Positions 21,555 to 30,151 of a DNA stretch of 47,368 nt are shown piece by piece. Location of the stretch: contig SIAU01000008.1 of the NCBI GenBank assembly GCA_009691685.1, positions 1 through 47,368 of the forward strand, given 5' to 3'. Under the pieces are notes generated by a model. It saw nothing but the letters and a program-made list of their open reading frames with translations, did no database searches and was not told where the DNA came from. Source of the stretch: Opitutales bacterium. GTDB taxonomy: Bacteria; Verrucomicrobiota; Verrucomicrobiia; Opitutales; UBA953. A program made the translations under genes and the position numbers. Position 1 is the stretch's first letter; each line of letters begins with the position of its first letter.

Positions 21555-22043
21555 TTATGTTTCGGATGACTCCAGCTCATCTATCGGTGAAAGAATATCA
21601 GTATTTTCACTATCCGGCATACTCATGTCGGACAGATCATCCGGTTCGGAGTTAGCGAACACCTCATGCGCCGAAATCCCATCTACAAAATCGTCAGCCT
21701 CATCGGCCATCGCTGCACTCAGGTTGTAAAGCGCCCCCGTGTACTCCGAGGGCAATGTCACCCTGAGTTGTACAAAAACTAAAGCGATTAAACAGGCGCA
21801 AGATGCCACTTGGCTCATGCGTTTAACGTAAACCCGCAACCAGGCAAATGAGTGATAGGCCTGCTTGGTTTGATGAGCAGCCAGACACTTATTCAGAGCC
21901 TGATGTAAACGCACCTTGACTTTAAAACGGTTTTTTAAATCCGAAGATTTCTTGATTAACTCCAATAAACGCGTCTCTTCTGCTCGCGAAATATTTCCGT
22001 CGAGATAGCGTTCAACTAAGTTTTCAAATTCCGTAAAACTCAT
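21555..22043 (-). CDS. Putative membrane anti-sigma factor
   Basis: The protein has 162 residues: an N-terminal helical part with YLDGNISRAEETRLLELI, one apparent membrane helix at about 77-97, then an acidic tail rich in Asp, Glu and Ser. The N-terminal block resembles the short sigma-binding domain of FecR-like and related anti-sigma factors, but no HxxxCxxC zinc motif is present. Its ATG overlaps the sigma gene's TGA by four bases, the usual arrangement for a sigma/anti-sigma pair. The role is inferred mainly from this arrangement and topology. Confidence 0.65.
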   Translation of the reverse strand: MSFTEFENLVERYLDGNISRAEETRLLELIKKSSDLKNRFKVKVRLHQALNKCLAAHQTKQAYHSFAWLRVYVKRMSQVASCACLIALVFVQLRVTLPSEYTGALYNLSAAMADEADDFVDGISAHEVFANSEPDDLSDMSMPDSENTDILSPIDELESSET

Positions 22044-22630
22044 TTCAAATACTCATCTCCCATGAGTTCACGTAAGGCCCCACGTGCGCGATTGATTCGA
22101 CTTTTAACCGTGCCGATAGAAAGTCCGAGCTCTTGCGCAATATCTTCATAGGATATGTTTTGGACATTACGCATGGTAAGAATTAGAGCATGTTCGGGCT
22201 TTAATTGTTCCATGCAGTCGGCAACTTTTTTCACGAATTCATTGTGTTGTGCTTCGTGGCCTGGTCCCTGGGCACCGTCCGATAAAATATCGTGCAAGGT
22301 TGCCCCGGCATCTTCCCCGAGATCTGCGTCTAATGACATCGACTCATCACGCTTGCGGCGTTTCCAATACCAGTAGCGATTTCGAGCTAAATTAGTTCCA
22401 ATTTGATAGATCCAGGTTGAAAAACTGGCGTTTCCACGAAAGGTCGCGAGTGCACGGTGGGCACGAATAAAAGTATCTTGGGTAATCTCTTCGGCGTCTT
22501 GGCTATTTCGGAGCATCGAAAAAACCTTAGCAAAAATTCTCTCCTGATATTTTAATACCAATTGATTGTAGGCATCCAAATCACCCTTGCGGGCACGATT
22601 TAGGGTAAGCTCTTCTGATTCATTATCCAT
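22040..22630 (-). CDS. ECF RNA polymerase sigma factor
   Basis: Region 2 (about 20-90) shows DAEEITQDTFIRAHRAL and FSTWIYQIGTNLARNRYW, which contact the -10 element and core polymerase. Region 4 (about 135-190) contains the helix-turn-helix YEDIAQELGLSIGTVKSRINRAR. Absence of regions 1 and 3 and a length of 196 mark an extracytoplasmic-function sigma. The anti-sigma-like gene overlaps its end. It diverges from the GTPase operon, with 99 bp between the two starts, so it is a possible regulator of that operon or of the ptsI-his genes. No clear GGAAC/GTC autoregulatory pair was found. Confidence 0.93.
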   Translation of the reverse strand: MDNESEELTLNRARKGDLDAYNQLVLKYQERIFAKVFSMLRNSQDAEEITQDTFIRAHRALATFRGNASFSTWIYQIGTNLARNRYWYWKRRKRDESMSLDADLGEDAGATLHDILSDGAQGPGHEAQHNEFVKKVADCMEQLKPEHALILTMRNVQNISYEDIAQELGLSIGTVKSRINRARGALRELMGDEYLK

Positions 22631-22657: not shown

Positions 22658-22675
22658 ACTGACTATAGTACTGAC
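22658..22675 (+). promoter_or_regulatory. Possible promoter/operator of the GTPase operon
   Basis: A TATAGT -10-like box (22664-22669) is flanked on both sides by the direct repeat ACTGAC (22658-22663 and 22670-22675). No acceptable -35 is found 16-18 bp upstream. GGAAC at 22655-22659 overlaps the region and resembles an ECF -35, but no fitting -10 lies downstream. The assignment is tentative. Confidence 0.25.
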
Positions 22676-22729
22676 ATCCTTGCAGAATTCAACTGCTCTC
22701 TTTAGTGTATTTTACGCCCCAAAGGACCC

Positions 22730-24448
22730 ATGTTTATCTCTAGTAAGAAGAAAGCCATCGTGCAGTGGTACAATTGCACCCTTGGCACTAAGGGCAGCTT
22801 TGAAACTCTACCCGCAAAACTCCCCACGGAGAGTCTATTGCCATCCATTATTCTCACTCAGAATTCTGGTCACCTTTCCATCGAATCAGTGGCGGGTAAA
22901 AAGATTTTTGTGAATGGAAATTTACTGATTAAGCCCACGCCGATTTCCGAAACCACGACTCTGCAATTTCCCGACTCACTTTGGGTAATCAGTCCAAGTC
23001 CCGAAATAGATTTCAGTGCAGTAAATAATACTCTCTGGACTTTGTTCGATGCTTCGACTGGTGAAAACATTGGCCAATATCCCTCCAGTCAACTTTTGAA
23101 CGCCGCCCAGCACCTGGGTCGCGCCCCCGAAACCCTGGCCTGCACTCCTGACGGTTTAGAAGTGGGTTTTAATCTTTCGCAGATTGCCAGTCACCTAAGT
23201 CCCCACGAAGAAAATTTTGTGAAGACCAAATCTTCCGTCACTTTAGCTGAAGAAAAAAATAAAGGTAGTCACAGCTGCCCAGTCTGTTGGACACGATTTA
23301 ATCCAGGCGACGCTCTCAGCATCGCCGTGCACGAAGATCTGCGCGGTGATCCGATCCTCGGTAGCGATGTTCGACTACGCTTCCATCCTACCCGCTTTAA
23401 CGATCATGGTCTCGCCCTCGACCCCATGGGCCTCGCCTGCACCGACATCGCTTGCCCTCATTGCCGTCGCCAACTCCCGCCAGGCTATCTGGATATGCCG
23501 CACCAGATTTTATCCATCATCGGAGCCCCTAGCGCGGGTAAATCGTATTATTTAGCCGTACTTACTAGAATTCTCCAAGAGAAGCTACCGACCGACTTAG
23601 GGTTGGCCTTTAAGGACGCCGACCCGACGGGTAATCTGCTCCTCAATCAAATGCGGAACTCCCTCTTCTCCGCCACCTCACCGGAAGAGGCTCTCCTGGG
23701 CAAAACCGCCCTCGAAGGCGCCACCTACGAAAAACTTCCGCGGCTAGGACGTATCGTCTCTCTGCCCCGTCCGTTTATTTACACGCTCAGCGTTCCCAGC
23801 CAAAAACAAAAAGAGACCTCAATTATTTTCTACGATAACGCCGGTGAACATTTTGAGCCTGGCATCGATATCCATGACTCGCCTGGCGCGATGCACGTCG
23901 CCACGGCAGCGGGTCTCATCTTCCTTTTCGATCCCACCGCGAATGCCCGCTTCAAAGCAAAATTAGTCGGCGTCGAAGATCCTCAACTTTCCATCAAAGG
24001 TCGCATCGATCAGCAAGACACGATTCTGGCTGAAATGGAAACACGGATCAAACGCGTCTTAGGCCTTTCTCAAAAAGAACGCATCGCCACTCCTTTAGCT
24101 TTTGTCGTTGGCAAGTGCGACACTTGGCAATTCCTCCTCACGTCACCACTCGAACCCATTCTGCAAAACGGAAAAATTGATCTGGAAGCCATTCACCGAA
24201 ATTCTGATCGCGTTCGAGAAGTTCTGATTCAACTCTGCCCAGGACTCGTCGCCACCGCCGAATCTCTCACCCAAGAAATTCGTTATTTCGCCGCAACCTC
24301 TTTCGGACACCAACCCGTCGTGATTGCCGAAGGCCCCAATAAAGGTCGTATCGCACCTGATCCCCAAAAACTCGCACCCGCCTTCGTCGAAGCCCCGGTT
24401 TATTGGCTCATGCATTTAGCTTCGCCTGAATTGATTCCTGGAAAATAA
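22730..24448 (+). CDS. FHA-like / zinc-ribbon / P-loop GTPase (double-GTPase-like) protein
   Basis: This 572-residue protein heads the four-gene operon. Residues 1-90 look like a beta-sandwich ending in FVNGNLLIKP, reminiscent of an FHA domain. Paired cysteines CPVC (183-186) and CPHC (242-245) form a zinc-ribbon-like module. The C-terminal half is a P-loop GTPase-like domain: G1 GAPSAGKS (265-272), G3 DNAGE (369-373), G4 GKCD (461-464, a variant of NKxD) and a G5-like AATSFG. It resembles the TRAFAC-type GTPases that accompany GAP1 proteins (Pfam DO-GTPase families, from memory). AAAGGA just before the ATG is a rare Shine-Dalgarno match here. No membrane helix is visible. Confidence 0.7.
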   Translation: MFISSKKKAIVQWYNCTLGTKGSFETLPAKLPTESLLPSIILTQNSGHLSIESVAGKKIFVNGNLLIKPTPISETTTLQFPDSLWVISPSPEIDFSAVNNTLWTLFDASTGENIGQYPSSQLLNAAQHLGRAPETLACTPDGLEVGFNLSQIASHLSPHEENFVKTKSSVTLAEEKNKGSHSCPVCWTRFNPGDALSIAVHEDLRGDPILGSDVRLRFHPTRFNDHGLALDPMGLACTDIACPHCRRQLPPGYLDMPHQILSIIGAPSAGKSYYLAVLTRILQEKLPTDLGLAFKDADPTGNLLLNQMRNSLFSATSPEEALLGKTALEGATYEKLPRLGRIVSLPRPFIYTLSVPSQKQKETSIIFYDNAGEHFEPGIDIHDSPGAMHVATAAGLIFLFDPTANARFKAKLVGVEDPQLSIKGRIDQQDTILAEMETRIKRVLGLSQKERIATPLAFVVGKCDTWQFLLTSPLEPILQNGKIDLEAIHRNSDRVREVLIQLCPGLVATAESLTQEIRYFAATSFGHQPVVIAEGPNKGRIAPDPQKLAPAFVEAPVYWLMHLASPELIPGK

Positions 24449-24452
24449 TTTC

Positions 24453-26582
24453 ATGCCTCTGCAACTCATATTCACTTCCGCCCCACGCGGCCTAGTGGCT
24501 GGGCGTTCGGGGTATTGCACCGTGGCACGTCATCGTTCAATTCCCGATCGACTCGCCCAAATTTTAGAATCACTCGGCACCCCACATCAAAATCCTGAAG
24601 GCGCCACTTTCACTTTTCGAATCATCGAAGCAAGTAACACCAATTGGTTTGTCTTATCACGATTTGTGGCTCGCGGACTCGATTACTCACAACGCGACAA
24701 TCGTCTCGCTCATCATTTAATTTTCACTGCCGAAGAAGCCGCCGTCCTCCCTCCCCCCTCAGCCATAGCCTTTCGCTGGAATGGTTGGTTAACGGAATGG
24801 ACGAAAGAACCGACCTGGCTAACCGAAGACCCTCGTCCACTTATACTCGATAACGCTCCACCCCTTCGCCCCGCCTCTGCCTGGCGTGAATTCTCGGGCA
24901 CCGGCGCGAAAGCCGCTTGGTTAGTGAATGAAGTTGGACCCGCGACACTTTGCCTCACGCAACCACCCGAAGATAAAATCCTTCTTCGGCTTTTAGCAGA
25001 ATCCGCTTCCTTACTAGGGCAATCGGCGTGGTACGCGACCTTCACCACTCAAGTGATAGTTACCAAATCCGATGGATTTAATTGGGCCGTTGGCGCAGTC
25101 ACTGGTCGACCCGAAATCAATCTCAGTCAAGCCCATCAACTACCTACCCCCACCGGAGAACTCGCCGTCCGCGCAGCCACGGGAAATAGTGCACCAATTC
25201 CGGCTCGCACAACCAGTGAAAAAAATAGCTCAGCGGTGCGTCGTACTAAATCAAATCAGTCTAAACTGCCTTGGAATATAATCATAGCTTTCTTCAGCTT
25301 AGGAATTTTAGCCATCATGGTCGCCCTCGTCATCGGCCAGTTTAGTAGCCGTTCTAAAAACAACGCACCACCCAACAACCCGACCGCTCCCGCGATCAAT
25401 ACGACGCAAAGTAGCGATATTTACCGAAGTAATATTGCGATTCAAGGGGTCGCCAGTTTTCTCGACAGCGAAAGGTATGTCGATGCCGGTAAACTCTGGC
25501 TCGAAAGTGTAAATCATTCGCCCACTTTTGCAGAGCGTTATCGCGAGCAATACCTAACACGAATCACCAAAAACTACGCGGAGAAAACAGCGAGTCAACT
25601 TTTACAACGACTCACCCTACCCAATCTTAATCAAAACACGGTCTCCGAAATCGGTGAAGACGCCGCCACTGCTGTACGTATCGGCACCGAGTTAAATATT
25701 CCCGTCGATGCTAACTGGAAAAAATTAGTGAACGTAAACGACCAAATTCAAATCATTTCTCAATTGGATATTCGTCCGGTTATCTTAATCAACGGCCGTT
25801 GGCAAACGACTGACCTCGGAAAATCCGCCCCCTCTTCCGCTGAGTTCAAATTGAGTAATGCGGGTGCGGAAAAGATTTTGAAATTTATCGAGTTAACCAA
25901 GGTAACTTCCGAACTAACCGTCAGCGCCCGCGTCCGTTTACTTCCGCTAACGAGTTTTCATAAACGTGATAATCTTACGCCTTACCTCAATGCTGAAATC
26001 CGTCGTGGTGGACAGAGCTATTGGATTGAAACCAGTGGCACTGCGGGCACCGCACCCATTGTCGTGGGGATTGGCCCGAAGAAGAAATCATTAGAACTTA
26101 ATTTTACCGATGGCACTGCCACGAGTTTACAGGAACAAAATCGTATACTAGAAATTGTTTTACCCGATGGTTCACATCAGTGTATCGCCCTCATTGCGGA
26201 TTGGAAAAAAATCAAGCCTCTCAATCTTGGCACTTGGGCTCTCGATGTCGAACGCGACACGGGTGTCGTTCAGGCTGCCACTTGGGCTGAAAATGCATTA
26301 AAAGCCTTCCAACCTGAAACCGGAACGGTCGGACTCTACCCCACCGGACACGAATTCCCCGATCGTGACCTCGCCTCCCTTCGCGCCACGCGTTCGCTAC
26401 TCGAAACTGATTTACTCCGCAACGAATACAAAGAAAGCACGCGTATCTCGAACCAAGAAAGCATTAAGTCGCGCAAACAGTTCTTTGCCCAAGGTGATTA
26501 TATCAACGCCGGACGTCCGTGGTCGCTCATCATCGTCAGCCCAAAAGGCGATGCCGGTGCCACCCTCATTGAGTTTCAATAA
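24453..26582 (+). CDS. GAP1-N2-like GTPase-associated membrane protein
   Basis: The N-terminus QLIFTSAPRGLVAGRSGYC and the following 120 residues match my recollection of the GTPase-associated protein 1 N-terminal domain type 2, which is found beside TRAFAC-like GTPases. One membrane helix (about 275-296) follows a Ser/Arg/Lys-rich linker. The C-terminal 400 residues, probably on the other side of the membrane, contain helical repeats (about 325-420) and then a beta-rich part; I recognise no enzyme motif there. The usual GAP1 middle domain is not obvious, so this may be a shorter, membrane-anchored variant. The gene starts 4 bp after the GTPase gene. Confidence 0.6.
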   Translation: MPLQLIFTSAPRGLVAGRSGYCTVARHRSIPDRLAQILESLGTPHQNPEGATFTFRIIEASNTNWFVLSRFVARGLDYSQRDNRLAHHLIFTAEEAAVLPPPSAIAFRWNGWLTEWTKEPTWLTEDPRPLILDNAPPLRPASAWREFSGTGAKAAWLVNEVGPATLCLTQPPEDKILLRLLAESASLLGQSAWYATFTTQVIVTKSDGFNWAVGAVTGRPEINLSQAHQLPTPTGELAVRAATGNSAPIPARTTSEKNSSAVRRTKSNQSKLPWNIIIAFFSLGILAIMVALVIGQFSSRSKNNAPPNNPTAPAINTTQSSDIYRSNIAIQGVASFLDSERYVDAGKLWLESVNHSPTFAERYREQYLTRITKNYAEKTASQLLQRLTLPNLNQNTVSEIGEDAATAVRIGTELNIPVDANWKKLVNVNDQIQIISQLDIRPVILINGRWQTTDLGKSAPSSAEFKLSNAGAEKILKFIELTKVTSELTVSARVRLLPLTSFHKRDNLTPYLNAEIRRGGQSYWIETSGTAGTAPIVVGIGPKKKSLELNFTDGTATSLQEQNRILEIVLPDGSHQCIALIADWKKIKPLNLGTWALDVERDTGVVQAATWAENALKAFQPETGTVGLYPTGHEFPDRDLASLRATRSLLETDLLRNEYKESTRISNQESIKSRKQFFAQGDYINAGRPWSLIIVSPKGDAGATLIEFQ

Positions 26583-26587
26583 GTCGA

Positions 26588-29545
26588 ATGCAAATTGATA
26601 AACTCATTGCACGGATTCGCGGACAACTCGAAATTGGCACGCCCGACCTCGAAGCGCGGACCTTAGCGAGTGAGTACTCCGCACTTTGCCAACGTGCCCG
26701 TGAGCGTCTCGAGCAATGCAATACCCTGATTCGCAATGGTAATGATTATGCAGCTTTTCAAATCGCCGAAACTGAACCCGACCTCTTGACGCTGGGCAGT
26801 CAACTGAGTTTTGCCGATTCCGAACGGTGGCATACCCTCTGTCGTGAGCGCGGACTCCCCTCCGGTTTCATTCTCGATGAACAACATATTTTAGCGGTCG
26901 AAGGTTTATACGGGAAATCCATCGGGGAAAACCATCAGCTCTATCGCGAATACCGTGAAGCCATGCGCACCCACGATGAAGATCGTGCCCTCAACGTCCT
27001 CCGCTCGATCGTCAGAATTAATCCCGAAGACCCGACCGCTCGCTCAGAGTTGATTCGCCTATCCGCCAAGTTTATTCGCGAGTCGCTCCATCACTTAGAT
27101 AAATTATTGGACGAAGATAAAGATGATGAAGCGATTCACTTGATGGGGCAAATGGAACGCTTTGGTGATGATGACTTAAATTCCAAACCGGAGTGGATTA
27201 ATGCACTCAATCGCCGCATCACGATTTTACGTCAGAAAGCATCTCAACAAATCCCCGCACTCATCAAAGAAGCGGAGTCCGCGAAAAGTAATCAACTCTG
27301 GGAATCATGCATTCATTCTTTAGCAAAAATTAGAACACTCGAGCGCGACCACCAACTCAGCCTCTCCGAGAATATTCAATCCTCCATTAAAAGTCTCGAA
27401 AATTGGGCGGGGGAACTGGCGACTGCTCACGAAGCCGAAGCCACGATAAAATCCAACACCCAGCAACTCGTGACGCAGTGGGAAAATCTTTCGGAAAGTA
27501 TTCAAAAGGGCAACTCGCCCGTCTTTTTAATCTCTAGTCTAAATGACTGGCTGGAACGGGCGAAAAATTTTACGGAAAGTCTGCCGACCGGCTTAATTGA
27601 TAAAGTTAATTCCGCGCTGAAATTAACGCGGGCCCGCCTCACTCGTCGCTACGCCCTCTTAATTTCTACCTGGATCGCTGGTTTTCTTATTCTCGTAGGC
27701 ACACTCTTCTACGGCTATCGCACTCAGGAATTAAAATCGGAGGCCCGGCGGAACTTCCAAGAAATTCAATCTCTGCTCGAAGCCTGGGACACCGAAACCG
27801 CCGCCCGGAAACTGGCTAGCGACAATAATAGTATGCTCAGCGAGAAAAGTTTAGAATTCGTAGAGGCGCACACGGAAATTAAAAAAGAGATTCAAAAACA
27901 ACGCGAAAGTATCACTACCCTCCGTACTGAAGCGAGTTACCTCCAACAAGCCTTCCAATCGGGCATCACTCTTTCAAACTACGCGGAAGTTAATATTCAT
28001 GCCAAGGCCTACATCCAAGCCATCACGCAAGTGGGACCCAAGGCTGCCGAAGATTTAAAGAAACTATGTCCCGACCCAGCTCTGATTCTTTCGAGCTGCC
28101 AAAAAATCACGGAGGAAAGTCGGACGCAATTATTCAATCTACGCATCCAACTTAAGAAATCTCTCGGGAGTAACGAAAAAATTTCGGATTTACCGAATGC
28201 GCTTAATACCATTGAGAAAATTCGTCCACTCATTCTCAGTCTCTCGGTTGCGGGCGTGAAAGACCTCGATGAAGCGAATGCCGAAATTGATCGAGCGAAC
28301 ATCCGAATTGAAAGTGAGAACCACGCCCTCTCCCAACTGCAGAGCCTCACCCAGGCCACCGATCTCAAAGTCTATCTCAGCGCCCTGGGTTCAATGATCA
28401 AAAATAATACGACGAGCTCCCCCTTAAGTAAGCGTGCACAAAATATCATTAATCATTCACCCAAGATTCTCACTCTGCCCCGCTCTGTTTTAGCACCTCA
28501 CATCGGCGCCATGTGGGATAATATTCCCAATACAGATTCCTCCGGACTATTTCAACCGTCTCAACTCACGCCCTATGAGTCGAATATTGTGCAAGCTTTA
28601 GCGGATAATCGCACCGCCCTATCGATGCGCCGATATTATGTGCGCCAAAACTCCTCCGAGGGGATTAAAAAAATACGTTCGGTGGTGATCTCCGGCGAAC
28701 TTGAGATACAACGCAAAGGCTTCAACGGCGGCATTGAATATGAAATCACTGGCAAAGAATTAAATCGGGACGGTGAATTCATCGACTCTTCCTGGAGTCG
28801 CCGAGAATTCCGAACCGAAAAAGGTGAATTCATCTCGAAGGGCGAGGACCTTGTTGAAGAAACCCCTCTGGGTGAACTTGATTACCTCCGACAGTTCAAT
28901 CGCTTCTTCGAAGTTAAAAATGGTCAACTCTCCGAACCCATCATTCGTAAACTCGATTTAGTGCGTCGCAGCCCAGCTCCATTCTTCGAATTACGTGCCT
29001 ATCAGCTACAAGAACTTTTTAAAGTCGCCAATCAACGTCCAGAAATCTGGGGCATCATGTATTCACCTTCGGCCCAACGCGACGCAGAGCAACTTCGCCG
29101 TATCACCCAAAACTCAATTAATGCGCACGACTTCCTGTTTAAAGAAAAATGGGCCGATGCCCTCGGTGATTTAAAATCCATTCTTCTTCGTCAGGATGGT
29201 TGCACCTACGCTGAAGAAGCGCGTTTTTGGCGAAGTCTCTTAGCAACGCTCCGCACCCAAAAAATGATTTATGTCGGCTTCCAGTCCGCTGATGGCGAAG
29301 CGATTCTGCGCGAGAAACTTTCCGACACCCTCATTTTCGGTATCGATAACGAAGGTAAGGCTAATGTGATTTATCGCGTCGATACCGATGGAAACCGCAC
29401 CCGGATCAACGAGCCCTCACCCCTCTCGCCTCTTTTACGCCTCTCCACCACGGTCACCGAAGCCGCGCGATCTTCCAAAATCCCTGCGAACCTCAATCCA
29501 CCCGAAGGAGGCTGGGAAGTCATCCTCCTCGGCCGTGATTTATAA
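26588..29545 (+). CDS. Large coiled-coil membrane protein of unknown function
   Basis: The 985 residues have no recognised catalytic motif. Residues 1-350 are almost wholly helical with repeat-like spacing (possibly TPR- or HEAT-like). One strong membrane helix lies at about 356-378, followed by long Glu/Lys/Gln-rich coiled-coil segments to about 620 and a C-terminal mixed region with FELRAYQLQELF and TDGNRTRI. The single central helix suggests two large domains on opposite sides of the inner membrane. It begins 5 bp after the GAP1-like gene and ends 3 bp before the GYF-like gene, so it belongs to the operon and may be its scaffold. Confidence 0.6.
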   Translation: MQIDKLIARIRGQLEIGTPDLEARTLASEYSALCQRARERLEQCNTLIRNGNDYAAFQIAETEPDLLTLGSQLSFADSERWHTLCRERGLPSGFILDEQHILAVEGLYGKSIGENHQLYREYREAMRTHDEDRALNVLRSIVRINPEDPTARSELIRLSAKFIRESLHHLDKLLDEDKDDEAIHLMGQMERFGDDDLNSKPEWINALNRRITILRQKASQQIPALIKEAESAKSNQLWESCIHSLAKIRTLERDHQLSLSENIQSSIKSLENWAGELATAHEAEATIKSNTQQLVTQWENLSESIQKGNSPVFLISSLNDWLERAKNFTESLPTGLIDKVNSALKLTRARLTRRYALLISTWIAGFLILVGTLFYGYRTQELKSEARRNFQEIQSLLEAWDTETAARKLASDNNSMLSEKSLEFVEAHTEIKKEIQKQRESITTLRTEASYLQQAFQSGITLSNYAEVNIHAKAYIQAITQVGPKAAEDLKKLCPDPALILSSCQKITEESRTQLFNLRIQLKKSLGSNEKISDLPNALNTIEKIRPLILSLSVAGVKDLDEANAEIDRANIRIESENHALSQLQSLTQATDLKVYLSALGSMIKNNTTSSPLSKRAQNIINHSPKILTLPRSVLAPHIGAMWDNIPNTDSSGLFQPSQLTPYESNIVQALADNRTALSMRRYYVRQNSSEGIKKIRSVVISGELEIQRKGFNGGIEYEITGKELNRDGEFIDSSWSRREFRTEKGEFISKGEDLVEETPLGELDYLRQFNRFFEVKNGQLSEPIIRKLDLVRRSPAPFFELRAYQLQELFKVANQRPEIWGIMYSPSAQRDAEQLRRITQNSINAHDFLFKEKWADALGDLKSILLRQDGCTYAEEARFWRSLLATLRTQKMIYVGFQSADGEAILREKLSDTLIFGIDNEGKANVIYRVDTDGNRTRINEPSPLSPLLRLSTTVTEAARSSKIPANLNPPEGGWEVILLGRDL

Positions 29546-29548
29546 ACG

Positions 29549-30151
29549 ATGAGTAAACAATCCACATTTCGTCTACGCTGGAAAGGTGCCATTTCCGAAC
29601 CACTCTCCTTAGGTCAGATTAGCGATAAATTACGTTCCGGTGAAATTAGTTTAATCCATAACATCGAAGTCGAAGGCTCATGGATAACCATTCGCGAGTA
29701 CTTCCGCACCCTCGGCCTGAGTCGCTCGCCCATCACCACCGCCACCCAAATCAAAAATCAGGAATCCGGCGGCAACCCTCCCGAAATAAAAGCGTCCGAG
29801 ACGAATCATACAAATAATCAGCCAAACCTCGAACACCTTGTACGCATGGGCTACCTCTGGTGTGGCTCCACTTTTATTTTCCCACTTTTATTTTCCCTCA
29901 TCGTACCCATATTAGAATTTTTAACTAAGGAGACTTTTCCGTTCTCCTCCCGTTTTGTGCTTCTGGCCTTTGGAACCCTTGCGGGGTGTGGACTTCCCTA
30001 CTTATCCATCCGATACCTTAACGCTTATATTCAAGACCACGGACTGAGCGATATCGTCAAAGATCAGCAAAAACTTTACGTTACCCTCGCCACGGCCAGT
30101 GCCCTCGTTTGGCTCATAGTTTTCTGGATTTTAGCAGGGACCAAGGCCTAA
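29549..30151 (+). CDS. GYF-like domain membrane protein
   Basis: The protein has 200 residues. The first 55 resemble the bacterial GYF_2 module: a short beta-hairpin, then LSLGQISDKLRSGEISLIHNIEVEGSWITIREY, the usual L..L...G.I....v...W..i pattern. Such modules are thought to bind proline-rich or other peptide ligands. A polar linker leads to three membrane helices (about 102-126, 133-158 and 177-197). It starts 3 bp after the coiled-coil gene and ends the operon. A second GYF-type protein is encoded near 41 kb. Confidence 0.6.
   Translation: MSKQSTFRLRWKGAISEPLSLGQISDKLRSGEISLIHNIEVEGSWITIREYFRTLGLSRSPITTATQIKNQESGGNPPEIKASETNHTNNQPNLEHLVRMGYLWCGSTFIFPLLFSLIVPILEFLTKETFPFSSRFVLLAFGTLAGCGLPYLSIRYLNAYIQDHGLSDIVKDQQKLYVTLATASALVWLIVFWILAGTKA

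Follow-up and report, generated by a model that had tools for sequence, protein, structure and literature searches.

The stretch of DNA analysed here (the window; 47,368 nucleotides of an Opitutales bacterium, assembly GCA_009691685.1, contig SIAU01000008.1, positions 1 to 47,368 of the forward strand) contains four tightly spaced genes, A to D, whose products probably form one joint complex at the inner membrane with a cytosolic GTPase switch. Maintenance or sensing of the cell envelope is the best single function that we can assign to A–D, a reading to which we give slightly less than even confidence. More tentatively, A–D could belong to a hitherto undescribed GTP-gated, ion-driven envelope machine of Verrucomicrobiota, made of a DO-GTPase/GAP1-N2 switch, a stalk with tetratricopeptide repeats (TPR), a GYF adaptor and a TolQ-like motor whose two TolR-like subunits differ from each other; the lineage of the window would have lost the motor, and its switch would have been rewired to a divergent sigma factor of the extracytoplasmic function (ECF) type. 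The four genes and their domains are as follows.

22730-24448, + strand: gene A (572 aa), open reading frame (ORF) for a cytosolic GTPase of the DO-GTPase2 family.
22760..22993, + strand: FHA-like beta-rich domain of A, residues 11-88 (strands in the structure model; FHA in some homologues).
23276..23464, + strand: zinc-ribbon-like site of A, C183/C186/C242/C245, residues 183-245 (cysteine conservation).
23501..24424, + strand: GTPase domain of A, residues 258-565 (invariant motifs; Foldseek).
24453-26582, + strand: gene B (709 aa), ORF for a GAP1-N2 protein with one transmembrane (TM) helix.
24462..24830, + strand: GAP1-N2 domain of B, residues 4-126, predicted cytosolic (Pfam).
25278..25334, + strand: TM helix of B, residues 276-294 (hydropathy, flanking charge).
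26588-29545, + strand: gene C (985 aa), ORF for a protein of no known family.
26588..27577, + strand: TPR-like helical solenoid of C, residues 1-330, predicted cytosolic (structure model; weak TPR_14 match).
27653..27709, + strand: TM helix of C, residues 356-374 (hydropathy).
29549-30151, + strand: gene D (200 aa), ORF for a protein with a GYF-like domain (residues ~1-50) and three TM helices (108-196).

The gaps between A and B, B and C, and C and D are 4, 5 and 3 bp, and these spacings and the location of the genes agree with the original prediction, which was made from the letters of the window. That prediction also proposed one GTPase-like protein and three partners with membrane helices, and hydropathy gives the same picture, with no TM helix in A, one in B (276-294), one in C (356-374) and three in D (108-126, 136-154 and 178-196). 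Purifying selection acts on each of the four: the ratio of nonsynonymous to synonymous substitution rates (dN/dS) against the nearest relative, L013, is 0.048 for A, 0.134 for B, 0.086 for C and 0.233 for D. The corresponding values for neighbouring genes are 0.044 (nadD), 0.047 (sigma gene), 0.054 (ptsI) and 0.244 (anti-sigma-like gene). Two of these flanking genes are named ptsI and nadD by their appearance. The recurrence of the same gene order across the phylum, together with the purifying selection on A–D, indicates that the arrangement is not due to chance. Searches of A–D against NCBIfam returned nothing useful, and sequence searches of solved structures gave coiled-coil or marginal matches only; a resemblance of B to DotF in the latter search (0.038) was too weak and was not used.

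The four genes recur together in other Verrucomicrobiota. The scan of genome contigs for relatives of A yielded 80 loci, the best 80 of 188 confirmed, and every lineage-named one is from Verrucomicrobiota; with 15 further stretches, 92 loci hold A. These loci were ranked by how closely their A resembles that of the window, so that counts over them describe an uneven sample. Of the 63 that extend 8.5 kb or more beyond A (with one record counted twice, as L049 and L112), 59 contain B, 57 C, 48 D, 26 a TolQ/ExbB-like gene (E) and 23 a gene of the TolR/ExbD-like type (F). When 144 genomes were drawn evenly from the phylum, C was matched in 22 and A in 23. Removal of weak, short C matches in G095, G106, G122 and G162 (E 3.3e-5 to 6.8e-4; all without A) and of one weak A match in G154 (9.5e-4) left 18 genomes with both genes, 4 with A only, none with C only and 122 with neither (Fisher p 2e-19, with no correction for kinship). 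Every genome with a strong C match also has A (18/18), and one contig holds both in 16 of the 18 (the exceptions being G176 and G189). The original prediction had made its case depend on profile similarity to the DO-GTPase and GAP1 families and on a neighbourhood survey for co-occurrence across Verrucomicrobiota; both were found, the co-occurrence in the 63 loci as well as in the 144 genomes.

The strongest sign of joint function is that A, B and C have in places moved apart and have yet been kept in the genome. Seven genomes have an A that is separated from B and C; C is present elsewhere in 7/7 of them and B in 5/7 (in two of these A loci, L035 and L046, the contig ends less than 1.7 kb beyond A). 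None of these C genes adjoins an A, if one leaves aside G217, where a further A-B-C copy lies on contig C93 (identical with locus L092). In the split genomes D directly adjoins C in 4/7 (L133, L134, L136 and L137), and B is alone in four and beside C in G039. C and D, which adjoin when A is apart, look like a sub-unit.

Most of the window's genus retains the operon: C is found in 47/55 genomes (20/22 of those of high quality) and A in 35/37 (broken by stops in G016, partial in G031 and cut by contig ends in a few). In G016 (contig C15, 34649-35524) A lies in pieces with stops, while the C gene of the same genome has no stop. Genus genomes of 1.3-1.5 Mb keep the operon, though not all of that size do. 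The correlation of protein distances is r 0.875 between A and ptsI (11 loci), r 0.856 between A and the sigma gene (24 loci) and r 0.964 between A and C (51 loci); ptsI lies upstream of the operon in 11 loci. A had no match among 72,556 plasmid and 50,697 phage records. Retention by most of the genus and inheritance together with the neighbours favour an envelope role over mobile defence.

A is a GTPase of the DO-GTPase2 family. Its match to the Pfam model (PF19993) exceeds the cut-off (E 1.2e-6; 28.8 bits against 27), and the same family was matched by 65/65 A homologues (E up to 0.1). The P-loop (G265..G270-K271), the G3 motif D369-N-A-G-E-H (D369, G372, E373 and H374) and the G4 motif K462-x-D464 are each invariant in all 65 aligned homologues, and the glutamate in the Walker B/G3 motif that is a trait of DO-GTPases is present as E373 within the invariant D369-N-A-G-E373. 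The four zinc-type cysteines (C183, C186, C242 and C245) are found in 65/65 homologues as one CxxC..CxxC set, the N-terminal zinc ribbon that characterises DO-GTPase/GAP1-N2 systems; a second zinc ribbon, said to be usual for the N2 type, was not seen in A. The structure model of A (predicted local distance difference test, pLDDT, 84.6) is composed of a beta-rich domain (11-88), a small mixed domain (99-156), the zinc region and the GTPase domain, and Foldseek matched it to atlastin, GBP, EF-Tu-type and Ras-type (MRAS) GTPases. The FHA-like domain of the original prediction stands at the level of the family, in which 7/65 homologues match FHA (E up to 0.1; best 6.5e-6); the FHA model did not match the window protein itself at E 1, and no fold search was run on this domain alone. 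The model suggested a GYF-like domain at residues 99-156; HHalign of this region with the GYF-like domain of D gave 47% over 18 columns locally and nothing globally. A is the single DO-GTPase2 match in its own genome, which is about 88% complete.

B provides the partner of this GTPase, as its match to Pfam GAP1-N2 (PF20013; E 9.1e-17; 61.8 bits against a cut-off of 24) completes the P-loop GTPase/GAP1 pair proposed for A and B from the letters. The name GAP1 denotes GTPase-associated, not GTPase-activating. The GAP1-N2 domain was matched in 38/38 B homologues, GAP1-M in 1/38 (E 0.067), and GAP1-C is not listed; divergence could hide both of the latter. Residues ~300-709 of B (~410 residues) are predicted to be periplasmic. 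Total length of B ranges from 433 to 1251 aa among ORFs passing a length filter of 420-1260. In two loci (L062:13946-15928 and L055:14420-16402) a further protein of 661 aa, also matched by the B profile, lies between B and C.

C matched no Pfam family above the cut-off; a weak TPR_14 match (0.0068) fell below it. The AlphaFold2 model of C (mean pLDDT 83.9; predicted template modelling score, pTM, 0.47) begins with the TPR-like solenoid, followed beyond the TM helix by a helical stretch (~384-650) and beta-rich stretches (680-757 and 893-952). The ~600-residue part after the TM helix is predicted to be periplasmic. Foldseek gave no match for C at E<=0.001, and loose TPR-type solenoids were among its top rows. 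C had been described as a coiled-coil protein; with a TPR-like solenoid at the N-terminus in the model and the TPR_14 match, it is more than that.

D combines an adaptor-like domain with a membrane part that varies. No Pfam family was over the cut-off for D, and GYF_2 was unmatched at E 1 in the window's protein; at the family level, GYF_2 was matched in 8/27 D homologues (E up to 0.1; best 1.6e-4), which is the support for the GYF-like domain that had been proposed for D from the letters. The C-terminal part among relatives is TM only, trypsin, PrsW or RDD, with a trypsin fusion of a D-type protein in L056 and fusions of PrsW and RDD with GYF_2 elsewhere. In L118 (11580-12800) and L119 (6897-8165) a GYF_2-type domain (3.5e-10 and 0.013) is fused to a PrsW-type intramembrane protease that adjoins the operon, a fusion that represents a possible proteolytic output. 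A shared PPPPG ligand for the GYF domain of D was considered and dropped: PPPPPG runs occur in 6/27 D proteins and not in the window's D.

Many relatives carry more than these four genes, which the original prediction overlooked. In loci of Verrucomicrobiaceae, Spartobacteria, Limisphaerales and marine Opitutia, among them the named strain Brevifollis gellanilyticus NBRC 108608 (L076), the operon continues with E, which is TolQ/ExbB-like, and two related F genes, which are TolR/ExbD-like. E matches MotA_ExbB (PF01618) at 4.6e-9 in L061 and 6.3e-9 in L086, and copies of E unlinked to A match it at 4.5e-10 and 4.3e-9. The F-type proteins have one TM helix, with an aspartate near its start in 17/19, and their label is based on position, on this helix with its aspartate and on appearance. 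The set stays the same while its position changes: the trio is before A in L118, after D in L111 and L119, and inverted after C in L085. By hand count, E is present in 26 of the 34 loci that contain C, extend 8.5 kb or more beyond A, can be read upstream and have no sigma gene. Several C proteins of Verrucomicrobiaceae have a histidine at the outer end of the TM helix. E and F genes without A–D were also seen on the stretches read in L115 (G054) and L116 (G037, contig C17); the motor trio may also form a unit of its own. In the window's genus, the E family of the operon was found in 0/37 genomes, many of them incomplete, and F gave a single marginal hit, interrupted by stops, in G011 (6.9e-4).

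In place of motor genes, the window's lineage has a divergent gene for an ECF-type sigma factor upstream of A, likewise overlooked before. The features of this region are as follows.

22040..22630, - strand: divergent ECF-type sigma factor gene (Sigma70_r2 3.2e-15, Sigma70_r4_2 1.3e-14).
21555..22043, - strand: anti-sigma-like protein of 162 aa, overlapping the end of the sigma gene and named by position and appearance only.
22671..22695, + strand: conserved site CTGACA-N12-TCAACTG, in the region that separates A from the divergent sigma gene.

A sigma gene of the same family lies beside A on the opposite strand in 31 of the 79 loci that have 1.5 kb or more of upstream sequence, and no locus has the sigma gene and E together. 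The core of the site (TGACA-N10..16-CAAC) is present upstream of A in 11/14 distinct sequences (16/19 with duplicate records), 54-63 bp from the A start. With at most one mismatch allowed, the full site has a single match in the window's own genome (G000), which is exact and at A; G198 has one (one mismatch, beside the operon), G199 none, and G156 three (exact at A and two elsewhere with one mismatch; one in the control). We tried and rejected a wider sigma regulon; with two mismatches allowed, the window is no richer than shuffles. Scans for sigma-70 promoters and terminators were also no richer than shuffles. Relatives of the 162-aa anti-sigma-like gene are found beside the sigma gene in many loci, and the window's protein has no Pfam match at E 0.05. 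The anti-sigma-like gene has changed much faster than the genes around it (dN/dS 0.244 and dS 0.90 against L013).

The sigma-linked and motor-linked forms are separated on the tree of A. In a quick tree of 74 A proteins, all 29 sigma-type rows fall inside one group of 38 rows (SH-like approximate likelihood ratio test, SH-aLRT, 93; no bootstrap), and sigma versus motor takes one change, or three once rows that have neither are included. The occurrence of motor-type rows on either side of the midpoint root suggests that the motor is the older state; the direction of this change is unsure given the long branches and the midpoint root.

Other putative neighbours were noticed by eye in a few loci. 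In L063 (2568-6913) a group of genes upstream of the operon, and on the strand opposite to it, appears to encode a ubiquitin-like and a ThiF/E1-like protein, and in L121 (12258-15678) and L122 (13368-16807) the genes after C resemble PilM-type genes of type IV pili.

We propose that A would dock on the cytosolic parts of its three partners, namely the GAP1-N2 domain of B, the solenoid of C and the GYF-like adaptor of D. Binding or hydrolysis of GTP by A, sensed through B, would change C, and the long periplasmic arm of C could act on or sense the cell wall or the outer membrane. In motor-bearing lineages, where a TolQ/ExbB-type channel and two TolR/ExbD-like subunits accompany the complex, the GTPase may control an ion-driven envelope machine by gating or steering it. 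The motorless complex of the window's lineage may now mainly sense or maintain the envelope, tied to a transcriptional response; the absence of the motor and the presence of an ECF sigma/anti-sigma-like pair that shares the promoter region suggest this role. A different DO-GTPase is found in the phage-shock (envelope-stress) operons of gammaproteobacteria, where the account in PMC11237479 predicts for it a role in membrane stress, and we count this in favour of the envelope reading.

Several observations weigh against this proposal. Two high-quality members of the genus lack C, which is therefore dispensable, and at the level of the phylum the operon is patchy (A in 23/144 genomes). By hand count, 8 of the 34 loci without a sigma gene but with C and enough sequence show no motor gene either. 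The 19 F-type proteins match no ExbD or MotB model among the families listed (25 of 106), and inspection by eye of the TM helices in B and C revealed no SHLS motif of force transducers. The sigma gene could be there as a neutral neighbour. Against L013, divergence is faster in B and D than in A, a pattern that an arms race would give too.

The last point leads to the principal alternative, a conflict system of anti-phage or suicide type, in which invasion is sensed by the outer part of B or through some ligand, the GTPase fires, and D or C acts as the membrane effector. Such roles were predicted for the whole DO-GTPase/GAP1 group when it was defined, with verrucomicrobiae named among the GAP1-N2 hosts (Kaur, Burroughs, Iyer and Aravind 2020; PMC7159879), and the wide range of B lengths, the variable C-terminal part of D, the faster divergence of B and D and the patchiness across the phylum would all fit. 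The operon, however, has C in 47 of 55 genomes of its genus and persists in genomes of 1.3-1.5 Mb, if not in all of that size, the divergence of A tracks that of ptsI, no plasmid or phage record matches A, and the PADLOC defence library gave no meaningful match for A–D. The conflict function of the original prediction is accordingly less supported, its fit to the phylum-level patchiness aside, and we consider it unlikely. Less probable still is a motor-driven machine for surface motility, adhesion or secretion, gliding- or pilus-like, with the GTPase as a spatial switch. The TolQ/TolR-like trio of the relatives would suit it, but the window's lineage retains A–D without the trio, and no gene family other than those named, which were the ones labelled, was seen to be linked consistently. 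It is also improbable that A–D borrow a general TolQ/ExbB-type motor of the genome and are thus still ion-driven in the window's lineage: general MotA_ExbB genes are available (three matches in the window's own genome and at least one in 41/41 genus genomes examined), but these motors match the operon's E profile in 0/37 genus genomes. That A–D are merely unrelated close neighbours can practically be dismissed in view of their phylum-wide order, co-occurrence and co-retention when split.

A large set of GTPase systems that are uncharacterised and have so far been read as conflict systems gains a representative that most of a genus retains and that is inherited along with its neighbours. The DO-GTPase/GAP1-N2 pair is tied to an ion-motor-like gene set, and the choice between defence and an envelope machine becomes directly testable, as a named strain, Brevifollis gellanilyticus NBRC 108608, is among the motor-bearing loci.

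Among known systems, Zorya offers a comparison for the trio of the relatives, as ZorA and ZorB are a MotA-type channel and its MotB-type partner. The present system differs in its GTPase core and its two TolR-like subunits, and A–D, the proteins run against the defence library, had no Zorya match there. The closest relatives are the DO-GTPase/GAP1-N2 systems as described in PMC7159879, with which A–D share the zinc site, the glutamate of G3, the GAP1-N2 gene directly downstream, TM partners and a GYF partner. That description keeps within the same group the planctomycete forms, whose GYF protein is joined to trypsin or to a TM-rich region; these match the D-type proteins here, including the trypsin fusion in L056. 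Unlike those systems, the window's A–D have no FNIII, tubulin, HSP70 or kinase match; FNIII is likewise missing from the listed family tallies for A (25 of 28), B and D, with C checked as the window protein only. A second difference is the one DO-GTPase2 protein in the genome instead of two paralogues, which PMC7159879 gives for 38% of systems and which are not a requirement. Family C and the TolQ/TolR-like trio set the present system further apart, and MotA, ExbB, TolQ and proton channel have 0 occurrences in the main text of PMC7159879; a link of such a motor to a DO-GTPase was not found in searches of open-licence literature. The motors of the Planctomycetes-Verrucomicrobia-Chlamydiae (PVC) group, presented in PMC12204202 as TolQ-like proteins with paired TolR-like subunits, a TPR gene and vWA force transducers, resemble the relatives' loci in having a TolQ-like gene and then two TolR-like genes near a TPR-type protein. 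They differ from the arrangement here, in which the trio is tied to a DO-GTPase, GAP1-N2, C and a GYF protein and is absent from the window's genus. The A/B pair belongs to the already known DO-GTPase/GAP1-N2 kind, and what is new here is the C family, the link between the system and the TolQ-like trio, and the motorless, sigma-linked branch.

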